From an uncultured Photobacterium sp. (lineage in GTDB: Bacteria > Pseudomonadota > Gammaproteobacteria > Enterobacterales > Vibrionaceae), in NCBI RefSeq assembly GCF_947039875.1, contig NZ_CAMRAN010000022.1, positions 1-64,000 on the forward strand: 64,000 bases of DNA, in the 5' to 3' direction. The notes beneath the pieces are model-generated. The model was not told the DNA's origin, searched no databases, and saw only the letters and a list, made by a program, of their open reading frames with translations. A program made the position numbers and the translations under genes. Below are positions 53,661 to 61,073 of this stretch, piece after piece (positions within the stretch are counted from its first letter, which is position 1; each line of letters opens with the position of its first letter).

Positions 53661-55424
53661 ATGCTCAAAATCACGTCAACACTATTACGTTTTGCCACCA
53701 TGTGCAGTTGCGCAGTTCCGATCTTTACCGTTTCTGCGCAACAGCTGAGTGATAACATCATTCCTGAAACCAGCGTCGCTCAACAGCCATCACAATTAGT
53801 CCAAGGTAAACAATGGATGATTGCTAGTGCGAATCACTATGCCAGTGAAGCTGGAGCGGCAATGTTGCGTCGAGGAGGGAATGCCATTGATGCGATGGTT
53901 GCCACCCAATTAGTTTTAGGCTTGGTTGAACCACAATCATCCGGTATTGGTGGCGGTGGTTTTTTAGTGTATTGGGATAACGACAACCACCAAATGACGA
54001 CCTTTGATGGTCGTGAAACCGCACCGTTTGCGGTCACGCCACGCTTATTTCAGGACAAAAATGGGCAGCCCTTAGCATTTTATGACGCGGTTGTCGGGGG
54101 CCGATCTGTCGGTACACCTGGTACGATAAAATTATTGTGGAATAGTCATCACCAATACGGAAAATTAAAGTGGAAACAACTGTTTCAACCGGCCATCAAA
54201 CTGGCTAAAAATGGCTTTATTGTTAGCCCTCGTTTAGCTGCATTAGTCGCGAAAGATGCCACACACTTGCAACGCTGGCCTGTCACTAAAAATTATTTTT
54301 TTGATCCCCAAGGTCAACCGATTCAAGCGGGCCAAAAATTAATTAATCAACCTTATGCCGATACCCTGCGTAAAATTGCTGATTATGGCCCAAAAGCATT
54401 TTATCAAGGCGACATTGCACGCGAAATTGTTAATACCGTCCAAAATTCCGTTGGTAATCCCGGTGTCCTCAGTAGCATTGATTTAGCCAGTTATAAGGTT
54501 AAACAACGGGCACCAATCTGCGCGCCTTATCACCAATATCAAATTTGTGGTATGGGACCACCCAGTTCTGGCGCATTAACGCTTGGCCAAATAATGGCGA
54601 TGCTCAATCATTACCCATTAGCTAAAATGGGCGCTAAGGATATTAATAGTTGGCGCTTAATTGGTGATGCATCTCGATTAGCGTTTGCTGATCGCGGCCG
54701 TTATATGGCCGACAGTGATTATGTACCGATGCCAACCAAAGGCTTACTTGATGCGGCTTACATTCATCAGCGGGCACAATTGTTAGCCACTAATAAAAAA
54801 TTAACCACCGTCGATGCAGGATCACCACCATGGGATCATGCCAACCTTCAAACGACCGATGAAGCCATTGAATTACCGTCAACCACCCATTTTGCGATTG
54901 TAGATCGCCAAGGAAATGTGGTCTCTATGACCTCAACCATTGAAAACAGTTTTGGTTCACGGTTAATGGTCGGTGGCTTCTTACTCAATAATGAATTAAC
55001 CGACTTTTCATTTCGCAGCCACATTGATGGCCAACCGATAGCAAATCGAATTGAACCGGGCAAAAGACCACGCTCGTCAATGGCACCGACAATTGTGATG
55101 CATAATAATCAACCGGTGTTAGCCATTGGCTCACCTGGCGGCAGTCAAATTATTGGTTATATTGCTAAAACCTTGGTAGCTTACATTGATTGGGGAATGG
55201 ATTTACAGCAAGCGATTAACTTACCAAATATCAATAATCGCTTTGGTCCCTTTGAGCTTGAGCAAAATACCTCAGCCGCAGCATGGGCGCCTAAGTTTGA
55301 ACAATTAGGTTATAAAACCGCAGTCAAAGATCTTAACTCGGGTATTCAAGCGATCAGTATTGCGCCAAAACAGTTAATTGGTGCCGCTGATCCGCGTCGC
55401 GAAGGTAAGGTTATCGCTCAATAG
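53661..55424 (+). CDS. ggt: gamma-glutamyltransferase
   Basis: GGT is a periplasmic N-terminal-nucleophile hydrolase that cleaves glutathione and transfers the gamma-glutamyl group. The 587-residue precursor has a signal peptide (about residues 1-26, ending VSA-QQ). The FDGRETAP motif with the substrate-binding Arg is present. The autoprocessing site falls before Thr408 in PSTTHFAIVD, which gives the large and small subunits. The C-terminal PGGSQIIGYI region is typical. It is a lone gene with its own terminator. Confidence 0.95.
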   Translation: MLKITSTLLRFATMCSCAVPIFTVSAQQLSDNIIPETSVAQQPSQLVQGKQWMIASANHYASEAGAAMLRRGGNAIDAMVATQLVLGLVEPQSSGIGGGGFLVYWDNDNHQMTTFDGRETAPFAVTPRLFQDKNGQPLAFYDAVVGGRSVGTPGTIKLLWNSHHQYGKLKWKQLFQPAIKLAKNGFIVSPRLAALVAKDATHLQRWPVTKNYFFDPQGQPIQAGQKLINQPYADTLRKIADYGPKAFYQGDIAREIVNTVQNSVGNPGVLSSIDLASYKVKQRAPICAPYHQYQICGMGPPSSGALTLGQIMAMLNHYPLAKMGAKDINSWRLIGDASRLAFADRGRYMADSDYVPMPTKGLLDAAYIHQRAQLLATNKKLTTVDAGSPPWDHANLQTTDEAIELPSTTHFAIVDRQGNVVSMTSTIENSFGSRLMVGGFLLNNELTDFSFRSHIDGQPIANRIEPGKRPRSSMAPTIVMHNNQPVLAIGSPGGSQIIGYIAKTLVAYIDWGMDLQQAINLPNINNRFGPFELEQNTSAAAWAPKFEQLGYKTAVKDLNSGIQAISIAPKQLIGAADPRREGKVIAQ

Positions 55425-55503: not shown

Positions 55504-57675
55504 TTATAGGGCGGTTAACTTCGCGTATTGGGTCACTAGCCACTTAATCCCTTCACCATTAAAGGCGACTTGCACTCGACTTTGGGCGCCACTACCTTCA
55601 AAGTTAATGATTGTGCCTTCACCAAATTTAGCATGCTGCACCCGCTGCCCTAAACTAAAACCGGTCTCATTGAAATTATTATTCACTTGAGTTTGGCTAA
55701 AACGGCCACTGCTCACCGGACGTGATACCTGCGCCTTCATTCGTACTTCCTCAACATATTGCTCAGGAATTTCACGAATAAAACGCGACGGTTTATGGAA
55801 ATTATCTTTACCATATAAGCGGCGCATTTCAGCATAAATGATATACAGTTTCTTCATTGCTCGTGTCATGCCGACATAACACAAGCGACGTTCTTCTTCT
55901 AACCGATCCGCTTCTTCAATGGTACGTGAGCTTGGGAACATCCCTTCTTCAACCCCCACCATAAAGACAATCGGAAATTCTAGACCTTTAGCACTGTGCA
56001 TGGTCATCAATTGCACCGCATCTTCAAAGGCATCCGCTTGACCGTCACCCGCTTCTAAAGCCGCATGGGCTAAGAAAGCAGATAATGGACTCATTTCAGC
56101 GGCTTCTTCTGGAATTTCAAACTGACGGGTTGCAGTGACTAATTCTTCTAAGTTCTCAATTCGTGCTTGCGCTTTTTCGCCTTTTTCTTGCTCATACATT
56201 GCCCGCAAACCAGAGTGACGAATGACATCATCCGTCTGTTGGTACATTGGCAATTCAGCGGTATCGTCTTCTAAGGCATTAATTAATTCGATAAAACGCT
56301 GTAATGCATTTGCCGCGCGTCCCGCTAGCACTTTTTCATCTAATAGCGCTAGACTTGATTGCCACATGGTTAAACCGCGATCACGTGCTGCTAAACGAAT
56401 CGTCTCTAAAGTGCGATCACCCAAACCACGCGTCGGTGTATTAACTACCCGCTCAAACGAAGCATCGTCGTTACGGTTGCTGATCAAACGCAAATAAGAC
56501 AGTGCATCTTTAATTTCTTGGCGCTCAAAGAAACGCATGCCGCCATAAATACGATATGGCATGCCCGCTTGAATTAAGGCTTCTTCTAATACTCGCGATT
56601 GCGCATTACTGCGGTATAAGAAGGCGGTATCACTGAGGCTTCCCCCTTGTTCACGCCACTCTTTAATTTTACCCACAGCAAAGCGGGCTTCATCGAGTTC
56701 ATTAAAAGCAGAATACAAAGAAATTGGCTCGCCATCGCCATCTTCAGTCCATAAATTCTTACCCATACGAGCAGTATTATTGGCAATTAATTCATTGGCA
56801 GCATTAAGAATATTGGCAGTCGAGCGGTAGTTCTGTTCTAAAAATATCGAGGATGCGTTATTAAAATCATTTAAAAAACGCTGAATATTTTCAACTTGTG
56901 CGCCACGCCACCCATAAATAGATTGGTCATCATCACCGACGATCATCACATGACAATCAGGACCCGCCATTAACCGTAGCCATGCAAATTGAATATTGTT
57001 GGTGTCTTGAAACTCATCCACCAAAATATGTTTAAAGCGTGCTTGGTAATGCTCTCGAATATGTTTGTTATCGCGTAATAACTCAAACGAGCGCAGTAAT
57101 AACTCGGCAAAATCAACCATCCCCGCACGATCACAGGCTTCTTGGTAAGCGGTATAGATACGTAACCACGTTTGCTCAACCGGATCATTATAGGTTTCAA
57201 CGTGCTGCGGGCGTAAGCCTTCATCTTTCTTGCTGTTGATATACCACGCACCTTGACGGGCAGGCCAATGCTTTTCATCTAAATTCTGCGCTTTAATCAA
57301 GCGGCGTAATAACCGCATCTGATCATCAGAATCAAGAATATTAAAATCTTCAGGTAGGCGCGCATCCAAATAGTGGGCGCGTAACATGCGATGACATAAA
57401 CCATGGAAGGTGCCATTCCACATACCTGCACTTGAGCCGTGCATTAATTCATTAATTCGACCCCGCATTTCTGCGGCCGCTTTATTGGTAAACGTAACCG
57501 ACATAATCGAGTACGGTGATGCTTGTTCAACCGCCAACAACCAAGCAATGCGATGCACTAGCACACGGGTTTTACCGCTACCTGCTCCCGCCAATACTAG
57601 GTGATTACCCAACGGCGCAGCCACCGCCTCGCGTTGTTTGTCATTGAGGCCATCTAATAGAAGTGAAACGTCCAT
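55504..57675 (-). CDS. uvrD: DNA helicase II UvrD
   Basis: UvrD is the SF1A 3'-5' helicase of nucleotide excision and mismatch repair. The 723-residue protein has Walker A AGAGSGKTRVL (about residues 29-39), motif II DEFQDTN, motif III DDDQSIYGWRGA, and motifs IV-VI including VGMTRAMK. The C-terminal Tudor-like domain (GQRVQHAKFGEGTI, about 660-673) binds RNA polymerase and UvrB. Length and order match the E. coli protein (720). Confidence 0.96.
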   Translation of the reverse strand: MDVSLLLDGLNDKQREAVAAPLGNHLVLAGAGSGKTRVLVHRIAWLLAVEQASPYSIMSVTFTNKAAAEMRGRINELMHGSSAGMWNGTFHGLCHRMLRAHYLDARLPEDFNILDSDDQMRLLRRLIKAQNLDEKHWPARQGAWYINSKKDEGLRPQHVETYNDPVEQTWLRIYTAYQEACDRAGMVDFAELLLRSFELLRDNKHIREHYQARFKHILVDEFQDTNNIQFAWLRLMAGPDCHVMIVGDDDQSIYGWRGAQVENIQRFLNDFNNASSIFLEQNYRSTANILNAANELIANNTARMGKNLWTEDGDGEPISLYSAFNELDEARFAVGKIKEWREQGGSLSDTAFLYRSNAQSRVLEEALIQAGMPYRIYGGMRFFERQEIKDALSYLRLISNRNDDASFERVVNTPTRGLGDRTLETIRLAARDRGLTMWQSSLALLDEKVLAGRAANALQRFIELINALEDDTAELPMYQQTDDVIRHSGLRAMYEQEKGEKAQARIENLEELVTATRQFEIPEEAAEMSPLSAFLAHAALEAGDGQADAFEDAVQLMTMHSAKGLEFPIVFMVGVEEGMFPSSRTIEEADRLEEERRLCYVGMTRAMKKLYIIYAEMRRLYGKDNFHKPSRFIREIPEQYVEEVRMKAQVSRPVSSGRFSQTQVNNNFNETGFSLGQRVQHAKFGEGTIINFEGSGAQSRVQVAFNGEGIKWLVTQYAKLTAL

Positions 57676-57922
57676 CGCTATCTACTGGTTATTTATACAA
57701 TGGTGACGATTATACCAGCCCCGATAAAGATTGCTTCGATATCTTTGTATCGATTTTCGCAAAAACCAGAAACACAAAAACAACATCAACACTAAAATAA
57801 TTAACATTCCAGTGTAATAAATATGGTGGTTACCCTGTCTATTATTCTGAAGGCGCATTAACGCCATTAAAAAAATACCAACGCGTAGCAAACCAACACT
57901 CAATCATAATCAAGGAACTATC

Positions 57923-58198
57923 ATGAAAAAGACCAATATAGCCTTAGCATCAGCAATGACTGGATTAATTGCGTTAGCAGGAACATTAGCTTCAACAACC
58001 GCCGTCGCTGACGAAATGGGCAAAAAAATGGCTAAAGAAAAATGTTATGGCGTCAGTAAAGCGGGTAAAAATGACTGCGCTACTAAAACCAGCTCTTGCG
58101 CAGGCTCGGCTAAAGAAGATGCTCAGAAAGATGCGTTTGTGGTCGTTCCAAAAGGGTTATGTGATCGCCTCCATGGCGGATCAACTGAGGAAGCATAA
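57923..58198 (+). CDS. bufA1: bufferin-type metallophore precursor peptide (DUF2282, BufA1)
   Basis: This 91-residue exported peptide has a signal peptide (residues 1-29, ending AVA-DE). A mature part follows with four cysteines: EKCYGV, NDCAT, SSCAG and GLCDRLHGGS. It fits the DUF2282 family, now called bufferins: ribosomally made peptides whose cysteines are turned into metal-binding heterocycles by an MNIO enzyme, giving copper protection in the periplasm. AAGGAA lies eight bases upstream. The next three genes overlap or nearly touch it. Metal specificity here is inferred, not shown. Confidence 0.88.
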   Translation: MKKTNIALASAMTGLIALAGTLASTTAVADEMGKKMAKEKCYGVSKAGKNDCATKTSSCAGSAKEDAQKDAFVVVPKGLCDRLHGGSTEEA

Positions 58199-58202
58199 CT
58201 TG

Positions 58203-59066
58203 GTGGACTTTTCATCCCAGCAATCAATTGGGGTGGGCTTACGCTCACCTCATATTATTGAAATGATCACTCAACGGCCACAACTGGGCTGGCTGGAAAT
58301 CCACAGTGAAAACTATTTCAACCCCCATTCATTAGCACGCCAACAACTACGCCAATTACAGCCTCATTATCCGATTAGCTGTCATGGTATTGGGCTGTCA
58401 TTAGGATCCGCCGATCCACTTAATGTTCAGCATTTACAACAACTCAAACAATTAGTTACTGAAACAGAGCCGTTCTTAATTTCAGATCATCTCAGTTGGA
58501 GTTCAGTTGATGGTCACTATTTTAATGATCTCTTACCATTACCTTATACCGAAGAAGCCCTCAATAATTTTTGCGATAAAGTGATTCAAGTTCAAGATGT
58601 ACTTCAACGGCCAATGTTAATTGAAAACCCATCAAGCTATTTACAGTTTCAACACTCAACCATTCCGGAGTGGGAATTTTTAATGGCCGTGCAACAACGA
58701 ACAGACTGTGGGTTGTTATTAGATTTAAACAATATTTATGTCAGCAGTTTTAACCATGGTTTTGATTGCCAAACTTATTTAGCGGCTATTAATCCTGCAG
58801 TAGTGCAAGAGGTACATCTTGCGGGCTTTATTCGTAAACAACTGCCTCAAGGTGAAATCTGGATTGATACGCATAGCCAACCCGTCAGTGATGAAGTGTG
58901 GCTCTTATATCAACAGTGGGTTCACTGTCATGGTAGTGAGACGCCAACATTAATTGAATGGGATGCAGATATTCCACCCTTGGCAATATTATTGGCTGAA
59001 GCCGATAAGGCTCAAGCCATTATCGATAAGGAGTTAGCCAATGCCATCATCTGCAACCACGCCTAA
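58203..59066 (+). CDS. bufB: MNIO family peptide-modifying enzyme BufB (DUF692)
   Basis: This is a multinuclear non-heme iron oxidase with a TIM-barrel fold, expected to modify BufA cysteines in the cytoplasm before export. The metal-binding residues are visible in HSENYF, SCHGIGLSLGS, SDHLSW, ENPSSYL, LLDLNNIYV, EVHLAGF, DTHSQPV and IEWDADIP. The GTG at 58203 is nine bases from AGGAAG. An in-frame ATG at 58173 inside bufA has no such site but cannot be excluded. Its end overlaps bufC by 26 bp. Confidence 0.92.
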   Translation: MDFSSQQSIGVGLRSPHIIEMITQRPQLGWLEIHSENYFNPHSLARQQLRQLQPHYPISCHGIGLSLGSADPLNVQHLQQLKQLVTETEPFLISDHLSWSSVDGHYFNDLLPLPYTEEALNNFCDKVIQVQDVLQRPMLIENPSSYLQFQHSTIPEWEFLMAVQQRTDCGLLLDLNNIYVSSFNHGFDCQTYLAAINPAVVQEVHLAGFIRKQLPQGEIWIDTHSQPVSDEVWLLYQQWVHCHGSETPTLIEWDADIPPLAILLAEADKAQAIIDKELANAIICNHA

Positions 59067-59841
59067 TTTGCAGCAATTACAACATCAGTTTGCGGCGGCA
59101 TTGCATTATCAACCGCATGATTTAACCACCACTATCGTCAATGACCATTTCAGTGCAGAGCAACGACTACAACTGTACTGTAATAATTTTATTATTGGCT
59201 TAACCGATGTTCTGGCAGCTGTCTATGCTACCGTTAGCGCCATGGTTGGTGATGATTGTTTCAACCACCTCGCGCGACAGCACATACTTAATCATCCGTT
59301 ATCACAAGGGGATGTCACTATTTATGGTGCTCACTTTAGCGATACTATCGCCGCTCAACCAACATTGGTTTCCACTCTGCCTTATTTAGTTGATCTCGCA
59401 CGGCTAGAATGGCAACGCGATTGTGTCAGCCGTTTAGCTTGCCACGCTGGCAACTTACCACTGCAAAAATTACGTCAACTTGAACATCAAGCCAATTCTA
59501 TTACTTCACAGCAATATTATTTTCATATTCCAACCTCAACCGACACCTTTAGCAGCCAATATGCGGTGGTGTCACTGTGGGAAATCGTTAACCATCCGCA
59601 TTCAGATCAACACCAATTATTAGCAACGCTGGATATTAATCAGCCGCAAACCGCCCTGATACAACATTACCAATGGCAAATTTGGCAGCAGCATGTCACG
59701 CCAGAATTAGTCACTTTAGTCACTGATTGTCAGCAGCAACGTCCAATTGCTGCGTTAACAACAACGCAATTAGATCTACTGCCACAGTTATTACACCACC
59801 ACTTAATTGACGATATTCGTAAGGTTAATAGTGATGATTAA
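59041..59841 (+). CDS. bufC: BufC: DUF2063 partner protein of the MNIO enzyme
   Basis: This 266-residue protein has an N-terminal DUF2063 (HvfC/BufC) domain: LQLYCNNFIIGLTDVLAAVYATVSAMVGDDCF at about residues 39-70, written here in part. DUF2063 proteins form the recognition partner that brings the precursor peptide to the MNIO enzyme. The start overlaps bufB by 26 bp and the stop overlaps the DoxX gene by 8 bp, so all are translationally coupled. Confidence 0.9.
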   Translation: MPSSATTPNLQQLQHQFAAALHYQPHDLTTTIVNDHFSAEQRLQLYCNNFIIGLTDVLAAVYATVSAMVGDDCFNHLARQHILNHPLSQGDVTIYGAHFSDTIAAQPTLVSTLPYLVDLARLEWQRDCVSRLACHAGNLPLQKLRQLEHQANSITSQQYYFHIPTSTDTFSSQYAVVSLWEIVNHPHSDQHQLLATLDINQPQTALIQHYQWQIWQQHVTPELVTLVTDCQQQRPIAALTTTQLDLLPQLLHHHLIDDIRKVNSDD

Positions 59842-60292
59842 TTTTATTCGTACCATCGACACTTTTTTTCAACAACTCGTACAACCGCTGCAACCATTAC
59901 TGTTACTTTTTAGTCGCGTTTGGGTTGCCATTGCGTTCTTTAAATCAGGACTGATCAAATATGGTAGTTGGGATAGCACTCTGTATTTATTTGAATACGA
60001 ATATCAGGTGCCTGTCTTACCTTGGCAATGGGCGGCCTATAGTGGAACAACGATTGAATTAATAGTGCCGATTTTTTTAGTGCTTGGACTATTCGCACGG
60101 CCGATGGCCATACTATTATTTGGCTTTAATATTATTGCGGTAGTGTCATACCCCGCTTTATGGCCGCAAGGGTTTTATGATCACCAATTATGGGGAATGA
60201 TGTTATTAGTTACTATATTCTGGGGCGCAGGTAAACTCTCAGTCGATCACTGGATAAGCCAGCATTATCGAAATAGCAATATCATACCGTAA
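59834..60292 (+). CDS. DoxX family membrane protein of the bufferin operon
   Basis: This 152-residue inner membrane protein has four predicted membrane segments (about 22-40, 57-77, 81-103, 115-135). The DoxX pattern RVWVAIAFFKSGLIKY begins the first. DoxX proteins accompany many bufferin and MNIO operons; their part is unknown, possibly redox or metal related. The ATG at 59834 has AAGG about ten bases upstream and overlaps the bufC stop codon. The longer reading from 59807 lacks a ribosome binding site. Confidence 0.88.
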   Translation: MINFIRTIDTFFQQLVQPLQPLLLLFSRVWVAIAFFKSGLIKYGSWDSTLYLFEYEYQVPVLPWQWAAYSGTTIELIVPIFLVLGLFARPMAILLFGFNIIAVVSYPALWPQGFYDHQLWGMMLLVTIFWGAGKLSVDHWISQHYRNSNIIP

Positions 60293-60299
60293 ACGGCTA

Positions 60300-60331
60300 A
60301 GCACCCAACAAGGCTAATCGCACTGGGTGCT
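60300..60331 (+). terminator. hairpin after the bufferin operon
   Basis: AGCACCCA and TGGGTGCT form a perfect 8-bp stem seven bases past the DoxX stop codon. No T-run follows, so it may act as an mRNA 3' stabiliser or a weak terminator. Confidence 0.5.
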
Positions 60332-60344
60332 AAATCGTGGACAT

Positions 60345-61073
60345 TTACTCTGTCGTTAAGCCGACTAATGGTAATAATTCAGCAAGCGCACTAATTTCAA
60401 TATCAGGTAAACAATTACTCGGGGTCGACGTTAATACTCGCGACTGGTCGTTATACCAACAAGCTTGTAAACCCTGTTGTTTGGCACCAAAAACATCTGT
60501 ATGTAAATGATCACCAACATGCAAAATTTGCTCAGCCGGAATATTTAAATGATTAATCGCACAGGTAAATAAATCAGCTTTCGGCTTAGCTAACCCATCG
60601 CGTCCTGCTTGGTAAATAGCACTAAAATAATCGGCCAAACCAATCTGTTGCGGATCGACATTACCATTAGTGATCCCGACCAACGGAACTTTAGCACTCA
60701 ACAATGCCAACACACGGTGAGTTTCAGCGGGAACATCAACTTTGTTGCGCTCAACTAGCACCAAATCTAACCCTTGGCGGGCCGCTAATTCAGCATCTTT
60801 AAGCCGCCATCCCAACTGCATAAAGTTAATTTTTAACGCTTCATAACGCCACGCACTGACATCATGACTCAAACTAGAATCAACCGCAGCAAGTTGTTGT
60901 TTTAAGCGTTGCCAATCATCACGGCTGATCACCATTGACGCGGGTAATAGCTGTGCTAACCAATCAAACATCGCTTGTTCTGCACGCACGATCACCGGAT
61001 GGTTATCATACAAGGTGTCATCAAGATCAAAAGTAAGGGCGTTAATCTGGCCTAACTGACGATAAAACTGCAT
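60345..61073 (-). CDS. yigB: HAD phosphatase YigB (riboflavin pathway)
   Basis: YigB dephosphorylates 5-amino-6-(5-phospho-D-ribitylamino)uracil for flavin synthesis and also acts on other sugar phosphates. The 242-residue protein has HAD motif I FDLDDTLYD (about residues 15-23), motif II GITNGN, the motif III Lys in LAKPKADLF, and motif IV HVGDHLHTDVFGA. It lies 33 bp after xerC, as in E. coli. Confidence 0.93.
   Translation of the reverse strand: MQFYRQLGQINALTFDLDDTLYDNHPVIVRAEQAMFDWLAQLLPASMVISRDDWQRLKQQLAAVDSSLSHDVSAWRYEALKINFMQLGWRLKDAELAARQGLDLVLVERNKVDVPAETHRVLALLSAKVPLVGITNGNVDPQQIGLADYFSAIYQAGRDGLAKPKADLFTCAINHLNIPAEQILHVGDHLHTDVFGAKQQGLQACWYNDQSRVLTSTPSNCLPDIEISALAELLPLVGLTTE

Follow-up and report, generated by a model that had tools for sequence, protein, structure and literature searches.

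A predicted Buf1-type bufferin operon at a genus-wide Photobacterium locus, with a promoter-like element upstream of bufA

From their predicted products, four consecutive genes of an uncultured Photobacterium sp., bufA, bufB, bufC and doxX, are identified here as a Buf1-type bufferin operon, made of a DUF2282 precursor, an MNIO enzyme, a DUF2063 partner and a DoxX protein. By analogy with characterised relatives, this operon very probably directs the production of a copper-buffering peptide carrying thiooxazoles at its central cysteines. All four ORFs were found intact between positions 57923 and 60292 of the window, i.e. the whole stretch of 64,000 nucleotides that was analysed. The features discussed below are as follows.

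55504..57675, minus strand: conserved left neighbour, which we take to be uvrD, outside the buf system
57813..57840, plus strand: candidate promoter TGTAAT-N16-CTGTCT, with ECF-sigma-like -35 and -10, proposed from the upstream alignment and pattern counts
57923..58198, plus strand: bufA, Buf1/DUF2282 precursor, 91 aa (PF10048, 79.9 bits, cut-off 22.4; alignment with 26 other sequences)
58203..59066, plus strand: bufB, MNIO maturase, 287 aa, GTG start, alternative TTG at 58200 (NF050167, 376 bits, cut-off 310; PF05114, MbnB_TglH_ChrH, 353.9 bits, cut-off 25)
59041..59841, plus strand: bufC, DUF2063 partner protein, 266 aa (PF09836, 65.2 bits, cut-off 27.2)
59834..60292, plus strand: doxX, DoxX-family membrane protein, 152 aa, ATG start (PF07681, 55.7 bits, cut-off 23.6, with the query minus its first two residues)
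60345..61073, minus strand: conserved right neighbour, presumably a yigB-like HAD hydrolase gene, outside the buf system

All four operon proteins exceed their Pfam family cut-offs, which rules out chance ORFs. The initial annotation had proposed a bufferin (MNIO) operon, and this was borne out by the Pfam and NCBIfam models, as well as by the literature, where the same gene set is the core of bufferin clusters (PMC12452194; papers are cited throughout for the excerpts used here). The compact arrangement it had described was also found: bufB and bufC overlap by 26 bases, bufC and doxX by 8 bases, and with bufB starting at GTG 58203, only 4 bases separate it from bufA, which therefore nearly touches it. 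This GTG is the most likely translation start, and replaces the one placed earlier, because a TGA lies immediately 5′ of the same GTG in P. phosphoreum (L066), and the TTG preceding it in the window is missing in P. iliopiscarium, P. carnosum and P. kishitanii.

Read by eye, the N-terminus of BufA resembles a Sec signal, with KK, a hydrophobic stretch and AVA ending at residue 29. Its cysteines are at residues 41, 52, 59 and 80. The motif EKCYGV..AG.NDCAT...SCAG....D and the fourth cysteine are conserved across 27 BufA rows from Vibrionales and Psychromonas (the window and 26 others), the regular expression used for selection having itself required four cysteines and part of the first motif. 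Among NCBIfam models, no Buf1 precursor model was matched, and the sole match, the BufA2 equivalog NF050166, was sub-threshold (25.1 bits against a cut-off of 60); BufA has four cysteines, against six or twelve in Buf2. In Buf1 bufferins, the central cysteines are the modification targets, whereas the two outermost are linked by a disulphide (PMC12452194, Fig. 3 legend). The earlier proposal that all four cysteine motifs are modification sites has to be narrowed, as only the central two are modified in characterised Buf1 (PMC12452194).

Solved structures matched by sequence were 3bww, a DUF692 protein, together with both MbnB chains of 7dz9 and the 8hci group. Among 81 candidate BufB sequences, one of 230 aa or less was dropped, and in the alignment of the 80 others, window included, His61, His96, Glu141, Asp174, His205, Asp222, His224, Glu252 and Asp254 (numbered from the GTG) are invariant in all rows. 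This agrees with the metal ligands initially noticed in the DUF692 protein: judging from the motifs, the invariant residues are putative metal ligands and the catalytic base. Asp249 of FonB, the proposed base, and Phe250, a selectivity site (PMC12668002), align with Asp254 and Ala255 of this BufB, and the position aligned to FonB Arg16 is a Ser. Conservation is lost at the Phe250 and Arg16 sites in DUF2282-type enzymes (PMC12668002), so the Ala and Ser are in keeping with an enzyme of this type. BufC had no NCBIfam match; its length is close to the 250–260 aa of most PME-type 1 proteins (PMC12452194). DoxX falls below the cut-off of the HvfX-family equivalog NF050144 (43.7 bits against 80, query minus its first two residues), and a doxX gene, present in this cluster, is a frequent, non-obligatory feature of Buf1 clusters.

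The buf operon is a genus-wide Photobacterium locus: bufB is present in 51 of the 52 genus genomes, and the order uvrD - bufA - bufB - bufC - doxX - yigB - xerC - dapF was found at all 13 named Photobacterium loci, with uvrD, yigB, xerC and dapF on the strand opposite the buf genes. At the eight named Vibrio loci, uvrD is again on the left in every case, and yigB, xerC and dapF were not found within 5 kb on the right. The closest named relatives of this BufB, in a comparison that may omit the record of the window itself, are in P. piscicola (99%), and in P. iliopiscarium and P. carnosum (92%), a kinship that places the genome in Photobacterium. More broadly, DUF2282 is present in 246 of the 296 family genomes, and over 80 loci, some on short contigs, a BufA match was found on the BufB strand in 74, on the opposite strand only in 1, and not at all in 5. 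The genome under study, searched for precursors of the DUF2282 type, has a single DUF2282, a single MNIO and a single DUF2063 match, which makes the three natural partners. Mobility or recent acquisition of the operon was considered and is unsupported, given the synteny of the 13 Photobacterium loci and a plasmid search that returned 4 records with partial matches covering 2–9% of the query.

Some variation was seen around this layout. The genus genome G010 (L177) is without a bufB or DUF2282 match, and yigB directly adjoins uvrD there, on one strand. An ORF at 53661-55424, presumably a gamma-glutamyltransferase gene from its appearance, adjoins uvrD in the window, and a similar ORF flanks uvrD in L177. 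In 3 of the 13 named loci, those of P. pectinilyticum, P. rosenbergii and P. aquae (L071, L072 and L074), two tandem bufA genes precede a single bufB; within these pairs the cysteine cores are near-identical, and the differences lie in the tails and signal peptides. Four successive DUF2282 matches were seen in one family genome, G233.

Upstream of bufA, an alignment of 14 Photobacterium rows (one of which, L068, sits 3 bases off its ATG) revealed a conserved block about 110 bases 5′ of the gene. Patterns for this element were written after viewing the alignments, with a fixed 16-base spacer. In a first set of 28 regions, the strict form TGWAAK-N16-CTKTCY was found in 15 of the 17 Photobacterium regions, the misses being P. 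phosphoreum (one base off) and P. lucens, and in 1 of the 11 others. With a relaxed -10, the counts were 15/17 and 8/11, the latter from Vibrio, Enterovibrio, Psychromonas and one further genus. Dinucleotide shuffles of the same regions gave a mean of at most 0.105 matching regions and a maximum of 2, a control that ignores kinship, several rows being near-identical (e.g. the window and P. piscicola). This first set was drawn from 70 upstream regions, 32 of which are outside Vibrionales and Psychromonas. Ten of the remaining 38 were left out: L044, L054, L057 and L060, the same sites as L074, L082, L077 and L079; L080, a second Enterovibrio bin; L045, unscored; and L034, L041, L048 and L052, scored separately.

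A variant, TGWAAK-N16-ACGWC, was found in four loci, probably Vibrio, of a 12-region set, 8 regions of which were counted again, on the correct strand, in a later set of 17. In that later set, the strict form matched 5 regions, the relaxed form 7 and the ACGWC form none. All 5 Photobacterium regions carried the strict form (two being identical sequence), and 10 of the 12 others had no match to any form, namely L033, L035-L040, L042, L049 and L055, the last being the site of L084, a miss of the first set. Eight of these loci, L033, L035-L040 and L042, are without the Photobacterium element; they encode divergent Buf1 precursors, probably of Vibrio, with a core such as NDCAAGPGTSCAG or NDCKAGPGTSCAG and a longer tail. 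A longer, 42-base Photobacterium form occurs once in each of 14 of the 52 genus genomes, the present one not being among them, against 0 for the reversed control, and all 14 matches lie upstream of a DUF2282 match, at about 0.2 kb.

A sigma-70 scan of 57650-60400 gave 7 promoter-like sites against a chance mean of 8.4, none of them at the element. The 16-base spacing and the absent sigma-70 -10 suggest an ECF sigma, and it is from these that we infer the involvement of a sigma factor. Control by sigma-F/NrsF was rejected, as no NrsF match was obtained at E 0.001 in this genome (93 contigs, 99.97% complete), while a Caulobacter control was positive; among the neighbours seen at buf loci, there was no sigma or anti-sigma gene either. 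Sigma70_r4_2 gave nine matches in the genome, five above cut-off, and the sigma factor for the element was not identified among these nine loci. Within at most 1.5 kb on each side of them, and with spacers of 15–17, there was one pattern match (spacer 17, L150), lying within the frame of a regulator-like protein, not an ECF sigma. Near the ECF gene of contig C67, a looser pattern had 3 matches on the strand of the gene, none with the strict -10. At that locus (L179, G000:C67:7500-13500), three genes follow each other on one strand, encoding an exported protein, a membrane protein that matches no Pfam family, and the ECF sigma. The ECF genes on contigs C67 and C11, and one resembling rpoE on C12, would be the first candidates for the sigma factor. 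Genome-wide, TGWAAKN16CTKTCY had 10 matches, against 7 for the reversed control. Seven of the 9 matches other than that of the window lie within long stop-to-stop frames, defined mechanically, and 2 (L173, L174) outside, so that no regulon is claimed. A single literature search joining copper and TGAAA with ECF sigma factors in Vibrio returned nothing. Our tentative reading, to which we give somewhat less than an even chance, is that Vibrionaceae bufferin operons are controlled through TGWAAK-N16-CTKTCY by a distantly encoded ECF sigma other than sigma-F/NrsF, the same -35 and spacing being combined with an ACGWC -10 in a few relatives whose DUF2282 form differs.

Compared with published systems, the Photobacterium operon is a typical example of a widespread, named family. 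It had been singled out at first as under-described, a view that does not hold given the biochemical work on its relatives (PMC12452194, PMC12668002) and the earlier genetics on gigPABT (PMC10304878), on the GIG operon in Legionella (PMC5413113) and on the genes targeted by sigma-F in Caulobacter (PMC3511200). With the Buf1 bufferins of Antoine et al. 2025 (PMC12452194) it shares the four gene families, the four-cysteine DUF2282 precursor, a likely signal peptide and a putative PME-type 1 partner; part of those clusters carry NrsF, sigma and anti-sigma genes, whereas no NrsF was found in this genome, and no sigma or anti-sigma gene among the neighbours seen. The gigPABT operon of Cupriavidus metallidurans, induced by copper and gold, likewise combines a small four-cysteine protein, exported as is predicted for BufA, with DUF692-type, DUF2063 and DoxX-like proteins, but it faces rpoQ-rsqA, encoding an ECF sigma and a putative anti-sigma (PMC10304878), whereas the buf neighbours in Photobacterium are uvrD and yigB. 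The same families are found in the Caulobacter operons CC3254-CC3257 and CC2905-CC2907, there under ECF-sigma control from a promoter GTAACC-N16-CGAA (PMC3511200), unlike the TGWAAK-N16-CTKTCY found before bufA, which is the one small new detail of an otherwise known operon type. The EGKCG captophorins fontiphorin, oxazolin and gonophorin (PMC12668002) combine an MNIO and a DUF2063 protein with thiooxazoles and copper binding, features that would be shared here; their precursors have repeated EGKCG, in contrast to the four-cysteine DUF2282 precursor of Photobacterium, and DUF2282 is one of three captophorin precursor groups (PMC12668002). A copper-chelating RiPP has also been described from a marine Microbulbifer (PMC12538549).

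In bufferin relatives, BufB and BufC turn cysteines of a Sec-signal precursor into thiooxazoles (PMC12452194), and we propose a similar course of events for Photobacterium. BufA would be synthesised with its Sec signal peptide and, in the cytoplasm, BufB, acting as a multi-iron MNIO oxidase, together with BufC, which would present the substrate, would convert Cys52 and Cys59 into 5-thiooxazoles. The modified BufA would then be exported by Sec and cleaved after AVA-29, Cys41 and Cys80 would form a disulphide, and the mature peptide of ~62 aa would bind periplasmic copper and buffer its excess. DoxX may be an accessory membrane protein. Metal or oxidative stress at the envelope would probably induce the operon, via an ECF-type sigma encoded elsewhere.

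Copper is the likely metal of BufA, as bufferins sequester periplasmic copper and improve growth under copper stress (PMC12452194), and related operons respond to copper or gold (PMC10304878, PMC5413113). The bufferin result weighs against another reading, in which the chemistry is the same, but the main role concerns oxidative or hypochlorite stress at the envelope, gold or another soft metal, copper binding being secondary. We regard that reading as unlikely, with several observations nonetheless on its side. A related H. influenzae operon, with DoxX, UPF0276 (DUF692) and DUF2063, responds to HOCl in an RpoE2-dependent manner (PMC7907618), so the stress may be oxidative instead of copper. 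The Cupriavidus (PMC10304878) and Legionella (PMC5413113) operons respond to both gold and copper, and the Caulobacter operons respond to chromate through sigma-F (PMC3511200). The ECF-like element before bufA would also suit an envelope-stress sigma. Against the preferred copper reading, what gig contributes with respect to copper in Cupriavidus was small and appeared in a few mutant backgrounds only (PMC10304878).

Since several products are known among MNIO enzymes (PMC12452194, Table 1), BufB might also make something other than a thiooxazole, such as an oxazolone thioamide or a C-terminal amide. This is very improbable, as BufB passes the BufB equivalog (NF050167, MNIO_BufB) and stays below the NCBIfam cut-offs for HvfB, ApyH, MbnB and ChrH, and every characterised MNIO-PME1 case installs 5-thiooxazoles, oxazolin having been revised (PMC12668002). 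That the cluster is decayed or unused in this strain seems hardly credible: nothing specific points to it beyond the one genus genome in 52 that lacks a bufB match and has yigB beside uvrD, against four intact frames, invariant catalytic residues, a BufB 99% identical to that of P. piscicola and the conservation of bufB in all other genus genomes. We retain a thiooxazole-bearing, copper-buffering bufferin as the preferred reading.

The Photobacterium locus points to a genus-wide marine bufferin system, in which the promoter-like element offers a handle on induction without an adjacent sigma factor. With a single DUF2282, MNIO and DUF2063 protein, this genome provides a clean setting for testing the roles of the bufferin and of DoxX. 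If true, control by a distant ECF sigma would represent a second mode of stress sensing for the bufferin family.
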